NCBI GenBank assembly: GCA_017452265.1
Contig: JAFTMS010000033.1
Coordinates: forward strand, 1 to 64,000
Length of the DNA stretch: 64,000 nt
Direction: 5' to 3'
Source: Bacteroidales bacterium
GTDB taxonomy: Bacteria; Bacteroidota; Bacteroidia; Bacteroidales; UBA932
Positions 18,451 to 63,495 of the stretch are shown in pieces (positions within the stretch are counted from its first letter, which is position 1; the number at the start of each line of letters is the position of its first letter). Both the position numbers and the translations under genes were made by a program. The notes under the pieces are model-generated. The model was given only the letters and a program-made list of their open reading frames with translations, searched no databases and was not told where the DNA came from.

Positions 18451-19779
18451 ATGGCTTTTGCATATTTCCCTCATACAGAGGATGATATACGGCAGATGCT
18501 GGACAGAATCGGAGTGGATTCCCTTGAGGACCTCTACTCCGATGTTCCGCAGGATGTCATCTACAGAAAGGAATACGACCTGCCTGATGCAATGTCCGAA
18601 CTTGAGGCGCGCCGATATTTCGAAGGCCTTGCATCGCAGAACCGCAAGATGCTCTGCCTCTGCGGCTTGGGCGCGTATGACCATTATTCTCCGGCCGTGA
18701 TTCCGTCCATAATCTCGCGCTCGGAATTTCTGACCGCCTACACTCCGTATCAGCCTGAAGTGTCGCAGGGTACGCTCCGTTATATATTCGAGTATCAGTC
18801 TATGATAGCCGAACTGACGGGCATGGACTGCACCAATGCTTCGATGTACGACGGTGCGACGGCAGCTGCTGAGGCCATGATGATGGCTATGGCTGCGACA
18901 AAGAAGAAGACGCGTGTATTGCTTTCCGAGGGCCTGCTTCCGCAGGTTCTTGAAGTGGTGAAGACCTATGCGAAGTTCAACGGCGTGGAGCTTGGCTTTG
19001 TGCCTTGCATCGACGGCGTGACATCGTATGGCGCTCTTGTCGCCGAGCTTGCTGCAGGTGATGTGGCCGGTGTCCTTGTGCCGGGTATAAACAGGTACGG
19101 AATCATTGAGGATATGACAGGATTTGCAGATGCTGTTCATGCTCAGAAAGGTCTGCTGATGGTATATTCGGATCCGTCTTCGCTTGCTGTAATCAAGACT
19201 CCAGGCGAGTGGGGTGCGGATGTCGTATGCGGAGATTCTCAGTCTCTTGGTGTTCCTCTATGCTTCGGCGGCCCGTATGTCGGCTTCCTTACATGTACGA
19301 AGGAGCTTGTCCGCAAGCTTCCGGGACGTATTGTCGGAGAAACGAAAGACGTGGACGGAAAGCGTGCCTATGTGCTCACGCTTCAGGCCCGCGAGCAGCA
19401 TATACGCCGTGAGAAGGCGACCAGCAACATATGCTCGAACCAGTCTCTTATGGCTCTGTATGTGACTGTATATCTGTCTCTTATGGGCTCGAAAGGTCTT
19501 CGTGACGTGAATGAGCTAAGCTATGGTGCCGCTCATTATCTCCATGACAGCCTTCTTGCGACCGGGCTTTTTGAAAAGGCGTTTGACAAGCCGTTCCTTA
19601 AGGAGTTCACGCTTAAGCCGCTTGTGCCTGTGGCTGATCTGCAGGAAGCGCTTCATGCGGAAGGCATCTTCGGAGCCGTCGAGGTGGAGCCGGGGCTTGT
19701 AAACTTCTGTGCGACTGAAAAGATACGCAAGGAGGATATTGAATATGTTGTATCAGTAATAAAGAAGTTCAAGGCATGA
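18451..19779 (+). CDS. gcvPA: Glycine dehydrogenase (decarboxylating) subunit 1
   Basis: This 442-residue N-terminal half of the split P protein forms a heterotetramer with GcvPB. Visible: [12 protein letters not shown] at the N-terminus, SFLGCG-like [52 protein letters not shown] and the degenerate PLP-fold domain. This half lacks the PLP lysine, as expected. A frame opening 9 codons earlier exists, but the ATG at 18451 matches known N-termini. Its TGA overlaps the gcvPB ATG (4-nt ATGA). Confidence 0.95.
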
Positions 19780-54277: not shown

Positions 54278-54331
54278 GAAATCATTTCCTGATGGTTTGC
54301 TTGATAAGTGCGACAAAAAACTGCAAAAAGT

Positions 54332-54362
54332 TTTGGATATTCAAAAATTGTCCGTATATTTG
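54332..54362 (+). promoter_or_regulatory. Promoter of the tRNA-Val gene
   Basis: TTTG (54332-54335), a 19-nt spacer and TATATTTG (54355-54362) form an exact match to the Bacteroidota promoter. It ends 12 nt before the tRNA. Confidence 0.8.
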
Positions 54363-54374
54363 CAGTCCTGTTTC

Positions 54375-54449
54375 GGGAGCGTAGCTCAGTTGGTTCAGAG
54401 CGTCTGCCTTACAAGCAGAGGGTCGGGGGTTCGAATCCCTCCGCTCCCA
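54375..54449 (+). tRNA. tRNA-Val (TAC anticodon)
   Basis: Acceptor GGGAGCG with CGCTCCC, D arm AGCTCAGTTGGTTCAGAGC, anticodon stem TCTGC/GCAGA with loop CTTACAA (anticodon TAC), T stem GGGGG/CCCTC with loop TTCGAAT, discriminator A. CCA is not encoded. It is 75 nt. Confidence 0.96.
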
Positions 54450-54455
54450 CACAAG

Positions 54456-54492
54456 AAAGACCGCCTTTCCATATCGGAGAGGCGGTCTTTTG
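54456..54492 (+). terminator. Terminator of the tRNA-Val gene
   Basis: AAAGACCGCCT and AGGCGGTCTTT form a perfect stem followed by TTTGTCTT, 7 nt after the tRNA. Confidence 0.88.
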
Positions 54493-54530
54493 TCTTCTTC
54501 AAGTTGCCATAAACCAATGACTTACAGATT

Positions 54531-55436
54531 ATGGCATCATCAAAGACTCAAGGATTGTTCTGCTATATGGAGCAGATCATCATGCTTTACCGCAATCGCG
54601 GACAGCACCGCACGTGCGAGACCTATGAGACCACATTGAACAGCTTCAGAAGATTCCGTGACGGCACAGATATTCCGCTTTCAGAAATCGATTCAGGCCT
54701 GCTCGAAGACTATCAGCAGCATCTGATGAGGCTCGAACTTTCTCCCAACACGATCTCCTTCTACCACAAGCATCTCCGTGCCGTCTACAACCGCGCCGTC
54801 GACGAGGGGCTTGTTGCCGACAGCCGCCCTTTCCGACGCGTCAGCACGTCCGTGGAGAAGACGGTCAAGCGCGCCGTCCCGCTGAATGTCATCCGGCGGC
54901 TGAAGTCGATGAAGCTCGCCCCCGGCTCGTCCGACGCCCTTGCACGTGACATCTTCCTTTTCAGCTTCTACACCCGCGGCATGTCCTTCATCGACATCGC
55001 GTATCTCCGGAAGAAAGATCTCTGTGACGGCATACTTCGCTACCGCCGGCAGAAGACCGGACAGCTTCTGATGATGCGTTGGGAACCATGTATGCAGGGA
55101 ATTCTCGACAAACATGCGTCCGTTCCCTCTTCGCCCTATCTTTTTTCCCTGATAAAGGACCCGTCCGGCGATGTCCGCCATCAGTATCAGAATGCCCTCT
55201 TCCTTGTGAACCGCCATATAAAGTCCCTGGGGCGACGTCTCGGCCTGGACCAGCCGCTTACATTGTACTGTGCGCGCCATTCATGGGCCAGCATCGCACG
55301 TGAAAACGGCATTCCGGTCTCAGTGATAAGCGAAGGAATGGGACATGGCTCCGAAAAGACCACGCAAATCTATCTTGCCTCGCTGAAGACGGAAGTCATC
55401 GACAAGGCGAACAGGAAGATACTCAGGCTGCTGTGA
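54531..55436 (+). CDS. Tyrosine recombinase (probable promoter invertase)
   Basis: This 301-residue phage-integrase family protein has an N-terminal SAM-like DNA-binding domain (about 1-100, LYRNRGQHRTCETYETTLNSFRRF) and a catalytic domain. Catalytic residues: Arg in FYTRGMSFIDIAYL (about 151), Arg/His in YCARHSWASIA (about 248-251), His in EGMGHGSEKTTQIYL and the nucleophile Tyr281. Bacteroidales use similar small recombinases beside capsule loci to flip promoters. Its stop is 27 nt before a 25-bp inverted repeat whose partner lies 139 bp away, flanking a promoter that points into upxY. It sits 82 nt after a tRNA-Val gene. Confidence 0.92.
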   Translation: MASSKTQGLFCYMEQIIMLYRNRGQHRTCETYETTLNSFRRFRDGTDIPLSEIDSGLLEDYQQHLMRLELSPNTISFYHKHLRAVYNRAVDEGLVADSRPFRRVSTSVEKTVKRAVPLNVIRRLKSMKLAPGSSDALARDIFLFSFYTRGMSFIDIAYLRKKDLCDGILRYRRQKTGQLLMMRWEPCMQGILDKHASVPSSPYLFSLIKDPSGDVRHQYQNALFLVNRHIKSLGRRLGLDQPLTLYCARHSWASIARENGIPVSVISEGMGHGSEKTTQIYLASLKTEVIDKANRKILRLL

Positions 55437-55463
55437 CAATGGAGGGTTTCGTGAGGGGAAGGT

Positions 55464-55488
55464 GTCAATCTTCTGTGAGAAGATTGAC
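55464..55488 (+). repeat. Left inverted repeat of the promoter switch (IRL)
   Basis: This is an 11-bp palindrome (GTCAATCTTCT / AGAAGATTGAC) around the 3-nt centre GTG. Its partner at 55626-55650 has the same arms around CAC. Apart from the outermost base pair it is an exact inverted copy, so recombination between the two would flip the 137-bp segment between them. Confidence 0.92.
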
Positions 55489-55497
55489 TTTTAAAAC

Positions 55498-55530
55498 GGA
55501 TGTCTGTAATACAGGATGTTACAGACATCC
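55498..55530. repeat. Hairpin inside the invertible segment
   Basis: A perfect 12-bp stem GGATGTCTGTAA / TTACAGACATCC with a 9-nt loop, then a CCGCAATGCGG palindrome. On the minus strand it is followed by GTTTTAAAA, terminator-like. Its place relative to the flanking genes changes with orientation. Confidence 0.7.
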
Positions 55531-55609
55531 GCAATGCGGAAATCCCTTATGGAGGCGTGTGAGGTCAAGATTTTCCTCCTCGGATGTAGCAATATTCAAT
55601 ATTAATTCC

Positions 55610-55617
55610 TATTTTTG
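55610..55617 (+). promoter_or_regulatory. -7 element of the invertible promoter, ON orientation
   Basis: TATTTTTG matches TAnnTTTG and lies 9 nt before the right inverted repeat. In the sequenced orientation it reads into upxY (ATG 55665). Inversion would point it at the 3' end of the recombinase gene. The -33 region is weak. Confidence 0.75.
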
Positions 55618-55625
55618 CAGATGAC

Positions 55626-55650
55626 ATCAATCTTCTCACAGAAGATTGAT
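55626..55650 (-). repeat. Right inverted repeat of the promoter switch (IRR)
   Basis: 11-bp arms ATCAATCTTCT / AGAAGATTGAT around CAC; the inverted partner of 55464-55488. As transcription from the switch starts just upstream, this repeat would form a hairpin at the 5' end of the upxY mRNA. Confidence 0.92.
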
Positions 55651-55664
55651 ATCTCCAGTGTGAT

Positions 55665-56312
55665 ATGGATATTGTGGAGAGAACAGGATTGTGTGTGATG
55701 GAAAGTAATGGCTTGGAATTATCTAATGGCCTGAAACTCAGCGCTAAAAGCTCGGTTTCGGGGAGCCAGAGGAACGCCCGTGAGGCTCTGGAGTGGTTCG
55801 CGATGAGCGCTACTTTCGGCCGCGCCCTCAAGGCAAAGGAAACAATCGAAAGCCACTCCATCCGTTGCTTCGTCCCGATGAAATATGCCATCGTTTCCGA
55901 CCATAGACAAGGCAAGGTCAGACGCCTCGTCCCCGCAATCAGCAATCTCATCTTCGTCTACACCACCAAGACCATCATCCAGAATCTCAAATCCTCCATT
56001 CCCTGGCTACAATATCTGACAAGACACGATGACGGCCGTAATGTCCCCATCATCGTTCCGGAGTACCAGATGCAGCAGTTCATGGCCGTATGCGAGACTC
56101 ACGATGAACATCTCGTGTACCTTGCCCCCGAAGAGGTCAATCTCGAAGCTGGAACACCGGTCAGAATAGTCGGAACCCCGTTCGACGGTGTTGAGGGCAC
56201 TTTTGTAAAGGTGGAGAAGAGCCATAGGAAGCGCGTCGTCGTGCTGGTGCAGGGAGTCGCCGCAGTCATGATCACAGAACTCACAGACGGTTACTTGCAG
56301 GTCTTGGATTGA
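55665..56312 (+). CDS. UpxY-type NusG paralogue (capsule antiterminator)
   Basis: This 215-residue protein has a NusG N-terminal domain (about 43-130: EWFAMSATFGRALKAKETIESHSIRCFVPMKYAIVSDHRQGKVRRLVPAISNLIFVYTT) and a C-terminal KOW domain (about 160-200: GTPVRIVGTPFDGVEGTFVKV). Such proteins head Bacteroides capsule operons and keep RNA polymerase from stopping in the long untranslated leader of their own locus. The start could also be ATG 55698 (MESNGLE). It is the first gene under the invertible promoter. The hypothetical gene after it begins 8 nt later. Confidence 0.88.
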   Translation: MDIVERTGLCVMESNGLELSNGLKLSAKSSVSGSQRNAREALEWFAMSATFGRALKAKETIESHSIRCFVPMKYAIVSDHRQGKVRRLVPAISNLIFVYTTKTIIQNLKSSIPWLQYLTRHDDGRNVPIIVPEYQMQQFMAVCETHDEHLVYLAPEEVNLEAGTPVRIVGTPFDGVEGTFVKVEKSHRKRVVVLVQGVAAVMITELTDGYLQVLD

Positions 56313-56319
56313 AAAGCGT

Positions 56320-56712
56320 ATGTTCAACGAAGTCAACCGGTTGTTTGCCACCAAGCTGAAGAAGATCCTACGGCTTGAGCTCCACAACGAAGACAGAATC
56401 AACCTCTACTGCGTAGGGGAGTATTGGGCCGCCTTCGATAAATCGGCATACATGCTCGAGCGCCTCGTACCCGACGCCGACCCACCTATGGTCCTCAACG
56501 TCAAAGGCTACCCCTTCCCCCTCGTCATGTACAACGTCTACTACCGCACCATCGACGAGATGTGCTACCGCTGCGCGATGGCCCGGAGGAATCTCGAATA
56601 CATCCAGTTCCTCACCACCCCCATCGACGACACCTCCTACAACCTCTGGTACGATCAGATCCTCGCCAACGAAACCGACGAGGACGACGAGGACGACGAC
56701 CACCTCAGCTGA
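56320..56712 (+). CDS. Hypothetical protein downstream of upxY
   Basis: This 130-residue protein begins MFNEVNRLFATKLKKILRLEL and has a balanced composition (Tyr, Met, Cys, Arg), e.g. YCVGEYWAAFDKSAYMLERLV and GYPFPLVMYNVYYRTIDEMCYRCAMARRN. The end is a strongly acidic tail, DEDDEDDDHLS. I do not recognise it with certainty; it resembles small proteins seen near IS66-type elements in Bacteroidales, and its position suggests it could be a UpxZ-like partner. It starts 8 nt after upxY. An open frame on the opposite strand (56368-56922) is explained in part by a separate fragment. Confidence 0.6.
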   Translation: MFNEVNRLFATKLKKILRLELHNEDRINLYCVGEYWAAFDKSAYMLERLVPDADPPMVLNVKGYPFPLVMYNVYYRTIDEMCYRCAMARRNLEYIQFLTTPIDDTSYNLWYDQILANETDEDDEDDDHLS

Positions 56713-56922: not shown

Positions 56923-57067
56923 ATCTGAAAAAAGATTAGAGATGCAAAGCTAAAGGATCAGTCGCCATACATCAAGACGTAACTCTGGAGACGCTTACAG
57001 CTTACACGACCCACGACGAAGCCTCTGAAAATCAGAGACTAAGCGTTAGCTCGCGGAATTGTGGACG

Positions 57068-57202
57068 TGTACCAGCCTTCAGTTCGAGGAAGGCATCGAA
57101 AAGACTGTGCGCTGGTATCTCGACAACCAGGAGTGGATGGACAACATAACTTCTGGGGAGTATGAGAAGTATTATCAGGAAATGTATAATGGAAAAAACT
57201 AG
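57068..57202 (+). pseudogene. 3' remnant of rfbB (dTDP-glucose 4,6-dehydratase)
   Basis: The frame reads LQFEEGIEKTVRWYLDNQEW followed by [20 protein letters not shown], stopping at TAG 57200-57202. This is the C-terminal tail of Bacteroidales RfbB (FEEGIxKTVxWYLxNxxW, ending SGEYxxYYxxMY). Only about 45 codons remain; the frame is blocked by a stop at 57047-57049. It overlaps the start of fcl by 14 nt. It is the scar of a lost rhamnose/capsule gene replaced by the fucose cassette. 56923-57067 contains nothing else I can recognise. Confidence 0.8.
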
Positions 57203-58130
57203 TAAAATTTATGTGGCAGGGCACCGCGGAATGGTGGGCTCTGCCATTGTGCGTGAATTGAAGCGCCATGGATATGAGAATATCATCACCCGTACACATA
57301 AGGAACTTGACCTGACAAGACAGGCCGAAGTCGAAGCCTTCTTCCAACAGGAGAAACCCGAGTACGTCTTCCTGGCAGCAGCCAAGGTCGGTGGCATCAT
57401 AGCCAACCAGACCGCACTGGCCGACTTCATGTACGACAACATGATACTCGAAATGAACGTCATCCATGCAGCATGGCAGAACGGCTGCAAGAAACTCGAA
57501 TTCCTCGGTTCCAGCTGCATCTACCCTCGCATGGCCCCACAGCCTATGCCCGAGAGTTGCCTGCTCACTTCCGAACTCGAAAAGACCAACGAGGCATACG
57601 CACTGGCCAAAATCAGCGGCCTTAAATACTGCGAATACCTCAACTGCCAGTACGGCACCGACTTCATCAGCCTCATGCCCACCAACCTCTACGGCCCCAA
57701 CGACAACTACCACCCTGAGCACTCCCACGTGCTCCCGGCCCTCATCCGTCGTTTCCACGAAGCCAAAGAGGCAGGCCTTGCCGAAGTCACCTGCTGGGGA
57801 GACGGCAGCCCGCTCCGTGAATTCCTCTATGTGGACGACCTTGCCAACCTATGTGTCTTCCTCATGAACAACTACAGCGGCAACGAGACCGTCAATGCCG
57901 GCACCGGCAAGGAAATCACCATCAAAGGCCTCACAGAACTCGTGGCCAAAGTAGTAGGCTTCACAGGCGAAATCAAGTGGGACACCACCCGTCCTAACGG
58001 CACCCCACGCAAGCTCCTCGACGTATCCAAAGCCAAATCACTTGGCTGGACCTACAAGACCGAGCTCGAAGACGGCATCCGTCTGGCCTACGACGACTTC
58101 CTCCACAACCCAATGCGAGCAGAACGATAA
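57189..58130 (+). CDS. fcl: GDP-L-fucose synthase
   Basis: This 313-residue SDR enzyme epimerises and reduces GDP-4-dehydro-6-deoxymannose to GDP-L-fucose. NADPH loop [13 protein letters not shown] at the start, [23 protein letters not shown], the catalytic [12 protein letters not shown] (Tyr-xxx-Lys, about 137-141), [31 protein letters not shown] and [19 protein letters not shown] 57189 is chosen; the frame extends 9 codons into the rfbB scar. It forms a pair with gmd 17 nt downstream. Confidence 0.95.
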
Positions 58131-58147
58131 TAAAACCTCCAAAATAG

Positions 58148-59266
58148 ATGAAGAACATAGCCCTAATAACAGGTGTTACCGGACAAGACGGTTCCTACCT
58201 CAGTGAGTTTCTCCTTGAAAAAGGATATGATGTGCACGGCATCATCCGCCGAAGTTCAGTAGATTACCGCGAACGAATCGCCCATCTTGAAGGCACCCCT
58301 AACTTCCACCTCCACTATGCCGACATGTCCGACTCCATGTCGCTCGTCAAGCTCGTGGGCAAGGTACAGCCAACCGAGATCTACAACCTTGCGGCCCAGT
58401 CCCACGTGCAGGTATCCTTCGATGCCCCTGAGTTCACAGCCGATGTCGATGCCGTAGGCGTTCTTCGCCTCCTCGAAGCCGTCCGCACCAACCACCTGGA
58501 GAAGACCTGCAAGATCTATCAGGCATCCACCTCCGAACTCTACGGCAAGGTAGAAGAGGTTCCTCAGAACGAGAACACCCCATTCCACCCTTACTCACCA
58601 TACGCTGTAGCCAAGCTCTACGGCTTCTGGATTGTCAAAGAGTATCGTGAAGCCTACAACATGTATTGCTGCTCAGGTATCCTCTTCAACCACGAGTCTG
58701 AGAGAAGAGGCGAAACCTTCGTAACTCGTAAGATCACCCTTGCAGCAGCACGTATCGCCCAGGGCAAGCAGGACTGCCTCTATCTCGGCAATATGGACTC
58801 CCTTCGCGACTGGGGTTATGCCAAGGACTATGTAGAGTGCATGTGGCTCATCCTCCAGCAGGAGAAGCCAGAGGACTTCGTCATTGCAACTGGCGTGCAG
58901 CACTCAGTGCGTGAGTTCACCCAGCTCGCTTTCCACCATGCCGGCATCGAACTCAAGTTTGAAGGCAAGGACATGGACGAAAAAGGTATCTGCGTTTCCG
59001 TCATCAACCCTGCCAACGAGCACCTCATCGGCAAGACCCTCGTAGCCGTGTCCGAAGACTTCTATCGTCCAACAGACGTAGTCAACCTCTGGGGCGACCC
59101 AACCAAAGCCAAGGCCAAGCTCGGCTGGAATCCACAGACCACCTCATTCGAACAGCTCGTCGAGATCATGGTAGAGCACGACATGGCCAAGGTAGCAGCC
59201 GAAGATGTGGCATCAAGGGTGCGCACCAACCTTGCTGAATACCTCGAAAAGGGAATCGTGAAATAA
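58148..59266 (+). CDS. gmd: GDP-mannose 4,6-dehydratase
   Basis: This 372-residue SDR enzyme makes GDP-4-dehydro-6-deoxymannose, the fcl substrate. NADP loop [55 protein letters not shown], the [16 protein letters not shown] and [17 protein letters not shown] catalytic block, and [21 protein letters not shown]. Full length. Codon use from 57.2 to 59.3 kb is more pyrimidine-ending than in upstream genes, which hints at separate acquisition. gmd follows fcl, the reverse of the common gmd-fcl order. Confidence 0.96.
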
Positions 59267-59275
59267 AACACATCT

Positions 59276-60496
59276 ATGAGCAAGGCAATAGAGAAGAAGT
59301 ACATACTTCCGTTCATACTTGTTACAAGCCTCTTCCTTTTATGGGGGCTTGCCAACAATATGACAGATACATTGTTGGCCGCTTTCAAGCGCATCATGGA
59401 TATGACTGACACGCAGACCAGTCTTATCCTTTCTGCTTTCTACGGCTCCTACTTTTGTTTTGCTATACCAGCCGCACTCTTTATCCGTAAGTACAGTTAT
59501 AGAGCCGGAGTTATACTCGGACTTGTCCTGTATGCGATAGGTGCTCTTTTATTTTACCCGGCAGCCCAGGCTGCAAGCTACGGCTTCTACCTGATTGCCA
59601 TATATATAATGGCTGGCGGATGCTCTGTACTCGAGACCACAGCCAACCCTTATATCATGTCTATGGGTATCCCCGAGACAGCTACCCGCAGACTCAACAT
59701 TGCCCAGTCTTTCAACCCTGTCGGCAGTATTGCCGGTATTTTAGCCAGCAAGTACCTCATACTGGATAATATATCTCTATATTCTGTGAGCAAGACATAT
59801 ACTGCTTTAGGGTGCTTACTGCTGCTTATCATAATAATGATGCTTTTTGCTAAAATGCCTCAGGGACGAGATGCTGAAGCAAACGGGTCTCTCAAGGCCA
59901 CCCTTTCCCGTCTCATTCACAACAAGCGCTATGTATATGGCGTCGTTGCCCAATTTTTCTATGTTGGAGCACAAGTTGGAGTATGGTCATATACCATCCG
60001 GATTGTGATGCAGGAGATGAATGTCCTGGAAGCACAAGCAAGTGATATATTCCTAATAAGTATGGTTGCATTCTGCATGTCACGGTTCTTCTATACATGG
60101 TTGATGAAGTGGGTGAAACCAACTAAACTTTTGGCTGTATCCGGAGTTTTGTCAATGGCTTGTTCTGTTGTAGTGGCTTGCTTGGAAGGCAATGGAATAC
60201 TGATGGTCGTTGCGCTAGTTCTCATAAGTCTCTTTATGAGTCTGATGTTTCCTACAATCTATGGTACAGCCTTAGAAAGCATTACTGCCGGATCTTATCC
60301 GGACGACTCCAAGATAGCCGCCAGTATCCTTATCATGTCAATTCTAGGCGGTGCCTTGATACCTTCTTTGCAAGGTCTCTTGTCTGATGCGACAAGTATT
60401 TATGTGTCATATCTTGTGCCGGCATTTTGCTTTGCAGTAGTGCTATGTTACGCAATCAGTGTTATACGAGATGAAAAGATACTGTCAAAGAATTGA
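59276..60496 (+). CDS. fucP: L-fucose:proton symporter (FucP-like MFS)
   Basis: This is a 406-residue MFS permease with 12 membrane helices. The first helix FILVTSLFLLWGLANNMTDTLLAAFK has the N and D residues diagnostic of fucose/glucose-galactose permeases. Also visible: YGSYFCFAIPAALFIRKYSYRAGVILGLVLYAIGALLFYPAA, LETTANPYIMSMGIPETATRRLNIAQSFNPVGS and MFPTIYGTALESI. It imports free L-fucose (or a similar sugar). Its end overlaps the mutarotase gene by 26 nt, so the two are translationally linked. Confidence 0.9.
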   Translation: MSKAIEKKYILPFILVTSLFLLWGLANNMTDTLLAAFKRIMDMTDTQTSLILSAFYGSYFCFAIPAALFIRKYSYRAGVILGLVLYAIGALLFYPAAQAASYGFYLIAIYIMAGGCSVLETTANPYIMSMGIPETATRRLNIAQSFNPVGSIAGILASKYLILDNISLYSVSKTYTALGCLLLLIIIMMLFAKMPQGRDAEANGSLKATLSRLIHNKRYVYGVVAQFFYVGAQVGVWSYTIRIVMQEMNVLEAQASDIFLISMVAFCMSRFFYTWLMKWVKPTKLLAVSGVLSMACSVVVACLEGNGILMVVALVLISLFMSLMFPTIYGTALESITAGSYPDDSKIAASILIMSILGGALIPSLQGLLSDATSIYVSYLVPAFCFAVVLCYAISVIRDEKILSKN

Positions 60497-60806
60497 GTTG
60501 CCGGACAATCAGGAACTGATAGAACAGTATATTGATGTACACAAGAATGTTTGGCCGGAGATAATAGAAGGCCAAAAGGCTGTCGGTATAATCCAGATGC
60601 AGATATTCGGATTGGGTAGAAGTTTCTTCATGATATGTGACACTATAGATTCTTTTGACTGGGAACGCGATATGATGAGGTTGGCAGAAATGCCTAGACA
60701 AGCAGAATGGGAGGCTTATGTGTCTCAGTTTCAGGGATGTGACTCCAATATGCTGTCGAAAGAGAAATGGCAATTGATGGATATGATTTTTGACTCTAAT
60801 CAGTAA
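60471..60806 (+). CDS. L-fucose/L-rhamnose mutarotase (RhaM family)
   Basis: This 111-residue RhaM-type mutarotase interconverts the alpha and beta anomers of 6-deoxysugars. Family features: MKRYCQRIELPDNQELIEQY at the start, HKNVWPEIIEGQKAVGIIQMQIFGLGRSFFMI (catalytic His in VHKNVWPE), a middle DSFDWERDM and a C-terminal KEKWQLMDMIFDS. The ATG at 60471 matches family N-termini; the frame opens 4 codons earlier. Position between fucP and a sugar kinase suggests fucose as the substrate. Confidence 0.85.
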   Translation: MKRYCQRIELPDNQELIEQYIDVHKNVWPEIIEGQKAVGIIQMQIFGLGRSFFMICDTIDSFDWERDMMRLAEMPRQAEWEAYVSQFQGCDSNMLSKEKWQLMDMIFDSNQ

Positions 60807-60809
60807 TTT

Positions 60810-62060
60810 ATGCCTAAAAAAGTTTTTGTTTCAGGATGTTATGACCTTCTGCATAGCGGACATGTTGAATTCTTTCACCAGGCCTCGCAGTTTGGTGATC
60901 TATATGTCGGTATAGGATCTGATGCTACCTATTTAGAGTATAAGCACCGCAAACCTATGTTTCCACAAGAGGAGCGTCTCTTTATGGTACTCAACATCAA
61001 AGCAGTCAAGGAGGCCTATATAAATGAAGGAAGCGGTGTCATCGACTTCATCCCAACACTCGATATCGTGAAGCCAGATATTTTTGTCGTCAATGCTGAA
61101 GGGGGCAGTCAGGCTAAGCGTCAACTCTGTGAGGATAGGGGCATCCAATATATCGAACTGGAGCGCACCCCACATGCCGGCCTCCAAGCCCGCAGTTCCA
61201 GCAGCCTCAAAGCTGCATTGAACCAAGAGCAACCAATGGCCGCCAATAGCCAAAAGCCAACAGCCAATAGCGCGATTCCAACAAGGTTGGATCTCGCCGG
61301 CACCTGGATCGATCAACCCTACGTCAGCCAGCACCACCCCGGATGGGCACTCACCATCTCCTTGGAACCCACCTTCGAAGTGCGCGACCGTTGTGGCCTC
61401 AGCACCAGCACCCGCAAGATGATCCAGAAGATCTGGCCTATGAAGCTCCCCAAGATGGATCCCGAGATGCTTGCCCGCTTGGTCTTCTGCTTCGAGAACA
61501 ACCCCGAGCGCGAAGACGGGCTCATCTCTGGAGCACAAGACGCCATCGGCATCTGCGTCCCCGGCCTCTGCCGTCACTATTACGACAATAACTTCTGGCC
61601 AAAGAAGATAGAGAGTACCACCGACGAGATGACCCTCCGTTTCCTCGAAGAACACCTCGTTATGGTACCCCTCGAACCTCGAGCCCTCGGCTGCAGTGTG
61701 GTAGAAGGCAAAGACATCACCCCATCCAAGGTCAAAGCCCTTGCCGATGCTGCCGATGCCTGCTGGAGCGCCATCATGGCCAAAGACCTTACCGCCTTTG
61801 CAGCAGCCTACCGAGCCTCTTTTGAGGCACAGGTATCCATGTTTCCGGGAATGGTGCATCCCACATACCTTGACCACCCCGAAACAGACGGCAGCTATAT
61901 AGCCGATGCCATAGCACATTATAGTGCTATGCCCGAAGTCCTTGCTTGGAAGATGCCCGGAGCAGGAGGTGGCGGATACCTTGCTTTGGTCGTGGAAGAT
62001 GCCAAGGCATTTGTGAAGAAACATCCAGAGGCGTTTGAGTTGAGGATTAGAAGGGAATAA
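60810..62060 (+). CDS. Nucleotidyltransferase-GHMP kinase fusion
   Basis: This 416-residue protein has a cytidylyltransferase-fold N-terminus (about 1-135; GCYDLLHSGHVEFFHQA holds the HxGH motif) and a GHMP-kinase-like C-terminus (about 158-416; RLDLAGTWIDQP, GLISGAQDAIGICVPGL, KMPGAGGGGYLALV). The domain order nucleotidyltransferase then kinase is like Fkp (fucokinase/GDP-fucose pyrophosphorylase), but Fkp is about 950 residues with a different nucleotidyltransferase fold. Given fcl, gmd, fucP and the mutarotase, it probably phosphorylates and activates fucose or a related deoxysugar. The linker (about 137-156) contains a 7-bp tandem repeat that could shift the frame. It is a type seen in Bacteroidota surface-glycan loci. 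Confidence 0.8.
   Translation: MPKKVFVSGCYDLLHSGHVEFFHQASQFGDLYVGIGSDATYLEYKHRKPMFPQEERLFMVLNIKAVKEAYINEGSGVIDFIPTLDIVKPDIFVVNAEGGSQAKRQLCEDRGIQYIELERTPHAGLQARSSSSLKAALNQEQPMAANSQKPTANSAIPTRLDLAGTWIDQPYVSQHHPGWALTISLEPTFEVRDRCGLSTSTRKMIQKIWPMKLPKMDPEMLARLVFCFENNPEREDGLISGAQDAIGICVPGLCRHYYDNNFWPKKIESTTDEMTLRFLEEHLVMVPLEPRALGCSVVEGKDITPSKVKALADAADACWSAIMAKDLTAFAAAYRASFEAQVSMFPGMVHPTYLDHPETDGSYIADAIAHYSAMPEVLAWKMPGAGGGGYLALVVEDAKAFVKKHPEAFELRIRRE
61242..61269 (+). repeat. 7-bp tandem repeat (4 units) in the fusion linker
   Basis: GCCAATA, GCCAAAA, GCCAACA and GCCAATA in tandem. The unit is not a multiple of three, so loss or gain of one copy would shift the frame between the two enzyme domains. 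Confidence 0.8.
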
Positions 62061-62452: not shown

Positions 62453-62947
62453 ATGAAACGTCAAGTGTTTTTTAGTTTTCATTATGATAGGGATGTTTGG
62501 AGAGCTTCTCAAATTAGAAATATGGGAAAAGTGGATAATAGTTCTACTTTTAGCGATAATGATTGGGAAGAAGTAAGATATAAGTCTGATGCTAAGATAA
62601 AGGAGTGGATAGATAGTCAATTGGCTATGCGTTCTTGTTTAGTTGTTCTTGTAGGTTATGAAACATCTCAGCGCAAATGGGTTAAGTACGAGATTGAACA
62701 AGCAATGAAATTACGCAAAGGGATTGTTGGTATTCGAATAAATCGCTTAAAAGACAGAAAAGACAATCAAGACCCCATGGGAAGTAACCCTTTTTATAAC
62801 ATCTTAACGTCATCAGGCAACAGATTGTCGAATTATGTGAAACTATTCGAATCTGGCTATAGCACAAGTACATATGTTTATGATGATATAAAGAATAACA
62901 TCGAAAGTTTAATAGAAGATGCTATTTCTCATAAGTGGGATTACTAA
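62453..62947 (+). CDS. TIR-like protein of the ThsB (DUF1863) family
   Basis: This 164-residue protein starts MKRQVFFSFHYDRDVWRASQ, the hallmark of the ThsB/DUF1863 TIR family of Thoeris anti-phage systems. Conserved features: the SFHY loop, WIDSQLAMRSCLVVLVGYETSQRKWVKYEIEQAM with an expected catalytic Glu, and a flexible end. TIR proteins of this class degrade NAD to make signal nucleotides that activate an effector. A membrane protein follows by 23 nt, the probable effector or partner. The region is AT-rich relative to the rest of the window, as expected for horizontally acquired defence genes. Confidence 0.85.
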   Translation: MKRQVFFSFHYDRDVWRASQIRNMGKVDNSSTFSDNDWEEVRYKSDAKIKEWIDSQLAMRSCLVVLVGYETSQRKWVKYEIEQAMKLRKGIVGIRINRLKDRKDNQDPMGSNPFYNILTSSGNRLSNYVKLFESGYSTSTYVYDDIKNNIESLIEDAISHKWDY

Positions 62948-62970
62948 ATTTAACTCAGCTACCGCAGGTT

Positions 62971-63495
62971 ATGAATAAGTTTGAGTATTCTGAAGATGAC
63001 CGCTTGTATCTCCAAATGATGCAAGACAATATTTCACGCATGGCCTCTAATAGTGCTAACTGCAAAACATGGACAGTCACTATTGTAGCAGCATTCCTTG
63101 CCATTGGTTGTGGAGTAGATAAACTGAATGGTTGGATTGCTTTGGCGTTTATTCCAATCGTAGTTTTCTGGTATTTGGATACCTTTTATTTGCATTTGGA
63201 ACGTGGAATGAGGAATCGGCAAAAGGATTTTCTGAATAAGGCAAAAGAATTATTATCTCTGAACACCAATGCGGCAGATGAACAAGTAATAGATGACTAT
63301 AATAAAGCACTATTCCAGTTTGCTCCGTTAGTCTCTGTTGAAGAAGATAAAACAAAAGGTATCGTTTCCACAACAGACAGATTCTTTTCCAAGTCGATAG
63401 CTCCTTTTTATGGTAGTATTGCCATTTGTGTGTTAGTTGTCTTATTGGTACTTAATTGGGAACTATTACTCCAATTGTTATGCTGTTCAGATTAG
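62971..63495 (+). CDS. Multi-pass membrane protein, candidate TIR effector
   Basis: This 174-residue protein has a hydrophilic start (MNKFEYSEDDRLYLQMMQDNISRMASNSANCKTW), then two adjacent membrane helices (about 38-53, TVTIVAAFLAIGCGV, and 58-75, GWIALAFIPIVVFWYLD), an acidic helical loop (about 85-140) and a third helix near the C-terminus (about 146-168, IAICVLVVLLVLNWELL). It resembles widespread standalone 2TM proteins of unknown function with a SLATT-like profile that sit beside TIR or nucleotide-sensing genes. No Macro or SIR2 domain is evident. I infer a pore-forming effector. ATG 62971 is chosen since it is outside the TIR gene. Confidence 0.65.
   Translation: MNKFEYSEDDRLYLQMMQDNISRMASNSANCKTWTVTIVAAFLAIGCGVDKLNGWIALAFIPIVVFWYLDTFYLHLERGMRNRQKDFLNKAKELLSLNTNAADEQVIDDYNKALFQFAPLVSVEEDKTKGIVSTTDRFFSKSIAPFYGSIAICVLVVLLVLNWELLLQLLCCSD

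Follow-up and report, generated by a model that had tools for sequence, protein, structure and literature searches.

A probable recombinase-linked invertible promoter ahead of upxY in a Bacteroidales genome, and the arm and centre pattern of its sites

Introduction

In Bacteroides fragilis, the tyrosine recombinase Tsr19 inverts a local polysaccharide promoter as well as a second promoter far from it, and many loci are targets of two additional master invertases, as set out in the parts of PMC4747536 drawn on here. The same parts report an effect of inverted repeats (IRs) between promoter and gene and describe Mpi of B. fragilis, which also inverts capsule promoters. UpxY-linked invertons with nearby invertases have further been catalogued in gut Bacteroidota (PMC11892184, tyrosine-type; PMC8748976; both considered in part), and UpxY is described in the part of PMC7819879 used here as preventing premature termination within the 5′ leader.

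Here, we analyse a locus of this known kind in a stretch of 64,000 nucleotides from a Bacteroidales genome (the window), which adds a well-bounded capsule switch from outside the model species. We infer with high confidence, from sequence comparison, that the locus is a phase-variation switch, the upxY capsule promoter of which is now ON and is inverted in this organism by the adjoining tyrosine recombinase. Its nearest described relative is the Tsr19 system, where a tyrosine recombinase likewise lies just upstream of an inverted polysaccharide promoter with a TAnnTTTG −7 box; the distant promoter inverted by Tsr19 would have its counterpart in another upxY locus on contig C13 of the same genome as a putative second target (compared with parts of PMC4747536). 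In contrast to the window enzyme, which is a tyrosine recombinase, Mpi is a serine recombinase according to the same parts of PMC4747536. The invertons of PMC11892184 and PMC8748976 resemble the window in combining an invertase, an inverton with a Bacteroides promoter and upxY as the first gene of a glycan operon, whereas the parts of these papers that were compared do not describe the arms of the window sites or the rule of shared arms and matched centres presented below. This rule was not found in the titles and abstract openings of the literature searched either; the B. fragilis site sequences lie outside this comparison, and we make no claim of novelty. A further counterpart is the integrase-UpxY region of the pMMCAT plasmids (NZ_CP072253.1, NZ_CP072238.1 and others), which shares with the window promoters bounded by IRs and a upxY gene directly downstream but differs in having two tandem invertons and other site arms; in the records with enough flank, a gene for a MraY-type glycosyltransferase follows upxY. 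Searching Rfam returned sub-threshold matches only.

Results and Discussion

Sites and promoter of the probably invertible segment

The initial annotation, which was made from the window alone, described two inverted 25-bp palindromes with matching arms and opposite centres between a recombinase gene and upxY. The left, recombinase-side site (55464..55488, + strand) reads GTCAATCTTCT-GTG-AGAAGATTGAC, and the right, upxY-side site (55626..55650, + strand) reads ATCAATCTTCT-CAC-AGAAGATTGAT. Their 23-bp cores (55465-55487 and 55627-55649) are exact reverse complements without any mismatch, which bears this description out, and the coordinates of the invertible promoter segment between the 25-bp sites (55489..55625, ON here) agree with the 137 bp given for it, the interval between the 23-bp cores being 139 bp. 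For gaps of 60-600, no exact inverted repeat in the region 54300-56500 is longer than the 23-bp pair, while 200 dinucleotide shuffles of this region yielded at most 13 bp (mean 9.6) at the same gaps. No inverted 14-mer at the spacing of the site pair (gaps 60-600) was found elsewhere in the 64-kb window.

The −7 element placed within the segment was likewise recovered: a TAnnTTTG box reading TATTTTTG lies at 55610..55617 (+ strand), is directed outward to upxY; 12 nt separate its end from the ATCTTCT core of the right site. From its position, transcription would start near 55624, at the inner edge of the right site, which fits the constant spacing of 12–14 nt between box and site in all six modules described below. 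No TTTG-like −33 element was seen by eye in the window promoter. Because the transcript would begin at the inner edge of the right site, its 5′ end should carry this site, which is predicted to fold as a stable hairpin in the ON mRNA.

A second hairpin lies inside the segment (55497..55531) and had been described with arms of 12 bp; the hairpin is indeed present, but its exact arms measure 13 bp. It is predicted to be very stable (−21.3 kcal/mol, z −7.1), and a TTTTAAAA run adjoins it on the leftward side only. We considered it as an orientation-dependent terminator that would face upxY in the OFF state and keep this idea as a lead only. No comparable hairpin was found in the five other modules, and the predictions of a terminator scan did not include it.

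The recombinase gene

The gene at 54531..55436 (+ strand) codes for a protein of 301 aa with the SAM-like core-binding and catalytic domains of tyrosine recombinases (PF13102 and PF00589). As previously noted, it ends 27 nt before the left site. The catalytic set R149, K175, R249, H272 and Y281 is present, and these residues as well as Y246 are invariant in an alignment of ten sequences (the window protein and nine others); a His is usual in the tyrosine recombinase motif at the position of Y246. No serine recombinase domain was detected in the enzyme, the family matches of which are of the tyrosine recombinase/integrase type only. Its upstream neighbour is a tRNA-Val (tac) gene at 54375..54450 (+ strand, predicted by ARAGORN), and the terminator scan placed a terminator-like hairpin at 54455-54491, 3′ of this tRNA gene.

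Relatives of the recombinase occur in 26 of 151 genomes of the genus. At the threshold used, an inverted repeat was present just downstream of the recombinase gene, with other arms, in 8 of the 20 larger genus loci fetched; the corresponding count for loci of the order, at the threshold used, was 5 of 12. As judged by eye, genus relatives of the recombinase also adjoin other types of genes (L044-L047 and L051), namely an operon containing a tubulin-like ORF (L044), operons of fimbria-like (L045 and L047) and capsule-like (L051) type and, in L046, a very long ORF that resembles restriction or helicase genes, each located behind the recombinase gene.

Homologous modules in both orientations

Scanning one genome per species (GTDB 220) for the site pattern CAATCTTCT-NNN-AGAAGATTG yielded 16 stretches, four of which are from Bacteroidales (L068, L069, L073 and L078). 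All four contain a partner site at 168–282 bp with 1–4 mismatches to the arm pattern and a matched centre, together with a recombinase of 63–65% identity adjoining this site pair and a upxY gene (54–69%), in the same order as in the window. No partner site with up to four mismatches was found within the fetched stretches of the other 12 (the site of L066 lies at the edge of its stretch), and two viral stretches with the arm pattern were unpaired. With the window and the C13 locus, this gives six modules that have site pairs, upxY and a leader element in common. The promoter is ON in the window, L068 and L073 and OFF in C13, L069 and L078, so related modules exist in three ON and three OFF states instead of one fixed orientation.

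The arm core ATCTTCT-NNN-AGAAGAT was detected in 15 of 393 genomes of the order; the 14 besides the window genome contain a single copy each. The window segment itself had no match in any other of 61 genomes, except for a 26-bp piece in G017 that corresponds to promoter sequence before tRNA-like genes.

A second site pair and the pairing of centres

Allowing up to three mismatches, the arm pattern has five occurrences in the window genome. Besides the two window sites and a pair on contig C13, there is one site on contig C29, which has three mismatches, lies inside a secDF-like gene and was taken as a chance match. The C13 sites (19332-19354 and 19498-19520) have the same arms as the window sites with one arm mismatch and the centres CCG and CGG, and match each other in 22 of 23 bp. 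They lie upstream of another upxY gene (70% identical over the aligned part), from which the promoter points away (OFF). Three UpxY-family genes of this genome score above the cut-off, the third of which is located on contig C39; no inverted repeat longer than 10 bp was present in the 0.9 kb examined there (~800 nt upstream of the gene).

The centres vary between the loci. The left sites of the six modules contain GTG, CCG, AAA, CAA, CGG and TTG, which form four classes if the strand is ignored, and the partner carries the reverse complement in 6/6 cases. We then compared a second, related site family, CTCTT-NNN-AAGAG, for which pairs were sought at a fixed spacing while the centre was left unconstrained. 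Such pairs exist in 2 of 180 genus and 6 of 295 order genomes, amounting to 19 pairs by counts. The centres matched in all 17 pairs fetched; of the two remaining ones, both on G178, one reads as matched and the other was not fully listed. Taken over both site families, the centres are matched within 23/23 pairs, and an outward TAnnTTTG box lies 12–17 nt from one site in 21 of these; one further pair has it at 26 nt, and another lacks it.

Because the arms are common between loci while the centre is variable and yet matched within each pair tested, the centre would be the part that paired sites must share. A shared centre is expected for strand exchange by tyrosine recombinases. The claim that only the 3-nt centre confers polarity fits both the palindromic arms and the matching in 23/23 pairs. 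We also considered whether different centres were selected to keep the loci apart: the seven listed pairs of G178 fall into five reverse-complement classes, two of which are used twice, and a chance draw would give about 6.4 of 32 classes by our own calculation. We thus claim the matching within pairs and not a selection for differences between loci. The tandem plasmid invertons (see below) were dropped as proof of an address rule because their centres differ in length.

The initial annotation took the window for a self-contained switch, which would mean that the recombinase acts on its own two sites only and that C13 is silent or served by a recombinase outside the assembly. The recombinase gene does lie only 27 nt from a site and adjoins the site pair in the four Bacteroidales relatives with these arms, and the assembly is 84% complete, so a recombinase may be missing from it. 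Against this stand the shared arms of the C13 sites with their mutual match of 22/23 bp, the failure of tblastn to detect a recombinase relative in the 19.5 kb of sequence fetched for this locus (best E 2.9), and the identity of only 34% of the one further genomic match that the recombinase has at E ≤ 1e-20. In the CTCTT-NNN-AAGAG family, 13 of 17 pairs likewise are without a recombinase relative within flanks of ~1.5 kb (tblastn, E ≤ 1e-4). Given a further site pair in this genome that no recombinase gene adjoins, the switch is unlikely to be self-contained, and we regard this part of the annotation as doubtful and a recombinase confined to its own sites as rather unlikely. The comparison of sites favours the reading that the window recombinase also flips the C13 upxY promoter, which we consider probable.

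A more far-reaching and tentative idea, to which we give somewhat less than an even chance, is a two-part code in which the symmetric arms name the recombinase and the centre, free to vary between loci but matched within a pair, serves as the address of the locus; the window enzyme would then govern two capsule loci, that of the window on contig C31 (ON) and that on C13 (OFF), the UpxY proteins of which would read the same kind of leader. If true, one recombinase could flip several capsule promoters without joining sites of different loci, and should a three-base mismatch prevent such exchange, many switches could be run by a single invertase without the chromosome being rearranged. For these switches, this provides a testable rule: arms common between loci and a centre matched within each locus. 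Two genomes with several CTCTT-NNN-AAGAG invertons, G178 with seven and G387 with five, contain one recombinase relative each at E ≤ 1e-90, a candidate master tyrosine invertase; no recombinase relative was found in the flanks of the ten loci fetched from them (G178 5/7, G387 5/5).

Inversion beside a related recombinase on plasmids

Recombinase relatives at E ≤ 1e-60 are present in 25 plasmid records, 21 of which were fetched (NZ_OY725773.1, NZ_CP103120.1, NZ_AP023050.1 and NZ_OY725772.1 were left out), and all of these but L167 were probed with sequences from the two invertons of a pMMCAT-type plasmid. This plasmid type carries a recombinase of 53.7% identity, followed by two invertons and then upxY. 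Both invertons were found in 14 of the 20 probed plasmids, with upxY as the next gene in the annotated ones. The first inverton has a single orientation in 14/14 plasmids, and the second is flipped in one of them, L176 (NZ_CP072238.1, B. uniformis): its 216-bp segment is the exact reverse complement of that in NZ_CP072215.1, without a difference in the other 3,263 bases, and its promoter points to upxY. Among the 13 other plasmids, eleven show no more than one base of mutual difference across the stretch compared, while L179 differs downstream and L183 more widely. A segment beside a plasmid recombinase 54% identical to that of the window, with site arms different from those of the window, has thus been inverted in nature. 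As judged from box and probe direction, both tandem promoters point away from upxY in 13 of the 14 pMMCAT-type plasmids (within L165-L183). In three of the six plasmids without the probe sequences (L177, L178 and L180), the annotation places a transposase gene immediately after that of the recombinase.

It is very improbable that the window segment is a relic that flipped once and is now locked in the ON state. This assembly shows a single orientation, and the window recombinase is short of the ~100 N-terminal residues that three of its four close relatives have in addition, but its catalytic residues are present, the 23-bp sites are free of mutual mismatches, and the recombinase of L073 is similarly short (323 aa). 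A reading in which the palindromes flank a fixed promoter and act as terminators, attenuators or binding sites for proteins instead of as recombination sites has next to no probability. It would draw on the stable hairpin predicted for the right site, on the four T that come after the left site and on the six T after the upxY-side site of C13. Against it, all 23 pairs have asymmetric centres that are exact inversions of each other, the segment occurs in both orientations among homologous modules, and neither site appears in the output of the terminator scan; a role of a hairpin after initiation would be compatible with recombination and is no alternative to it. The annotation as a recombinase-linked invertible upxY promoter in the ON orientation therefore holds, given the catalytic residues, the modules in both orientations and the flipped segment beside a related recombinase on a plasmid.

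Proposed mechanism, leader element and likely switched genes

In the promoter inversion that we favour, the recombinase would bind both 25-bp sites at their symmetric arms, and strand exchange across the shared centre would invert the 137-bp segment, with the matched centre fixing the polarity. In the ON state, the TAnnTTTG promoter would fire towards upxY and give an mRNA with the right-site hairpin, a leader consisting of a hairpin and GAGCCA, upxY, a upxZ-like gene and the sugar-nucleotide/capsule genes, in this order; in the OFF state, it would face back into the recombinase gene. UpxY made from the ON message would help the polymerase through the capsule operon, probably by antitermination at the leader.

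The upxY ORF is listed with 215 aa at 55665..56312 (+ strand; NF033644, 138 bits at a cut-off of 100), and the family match begins at residue 44. A conserved leader element (55723..55776, + strand), TAA..CCTGAAAC-loop-GTTTCGGG followed by GAGCCANNGGAA, lies within the proposed N-terminus (55665-55793). Because of this location and because no in-frame ATG, GTG or TTG was seen in the window sequence between the element and the family match, the start codon is uncertain: the ORF is listed from 55665, 14 nt past the right site as previously stated, but the ATG at this position is doubtful as the true start.

In the form TAA..CCTGAAAC-loop-GTTTCAGG followed by GAGCCA..RGAA, the leader is present in 6/6 modules, where it follows the right site and precedes the conserved upxY region. 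In the six-module alignment, 47 of 48 cells of its 8-bp stem are paired, with changes on both sides at three pairs; shuffles reached this pairing together with the both-side changes in 7 of 500 cases, and a third measure (further pair types) in 50 of 500. Folded as single sequences, the leaders differ only modestly from shuffles in five of six modules and not at all clearly in L010 (z −0.4 to −3.1).

A model built from the six modules gave one convincing outside match (L113, 25.4 bits), located ~50 nt upstream of a upxY gene without a neighbouring recombinase relative. The leader was found in 2 of 61 genomes of the genus sample, namely at the two loci of the window genome and as one weak match in a coding frame, and in 3 of 295 genomes of the order sample besides its own, namely in L113 and twice inside coding frames, where all three weak matches lie. 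The GGAGCC core was not enriched in 25 other UpxY upstream regions (30 fetched, five cut off), whereas an enrichment of GGTACGC in such regions looks like the Trp-Tyr-Ala codons of upxY itself. We therefore rejected the leader as a general UpxY feature and regard it as the mark of a UpxY subgroup, for which it is a plausible recognition site. According to Saba et al. (2024), UpxY is reportedly recruited to paused polymerase, aided by leader hairpins. The conserved leader offers a concrete candidate sequence by which UpxY may recognise its own operon.

An ORF of 130 aa follows at 56320..56712 (+ strand) and is called upxZ by position only, as it had no family match in Pfam or NCBIfam; ORFs of 124–133 aa also follow upxY in L068, L069, L073 and L078. 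The GDP-fucose type genes further downstream (57162..62060, + strand), comprising fcl, gmd, fucP, a weakly mutarotase-like ORF and a nucleotidyltransferase-like gene, are likely the switched operon. Between the upxZ-position ORF and fcl, a 3′-end remnant of a dTDP-glucose 4,6-dehydratase gene (57056-57190) is taken to reflect past operon exchange. From the promoter, the series of + strand genes continues as far as two genes at 62453-63495 that match a candidate phage-defence pair (ThsB-type TIR/PDC-M50B, and PDC-M50A); because they share their direction with the capsule genes, capsule and defence might be phase-switched together.
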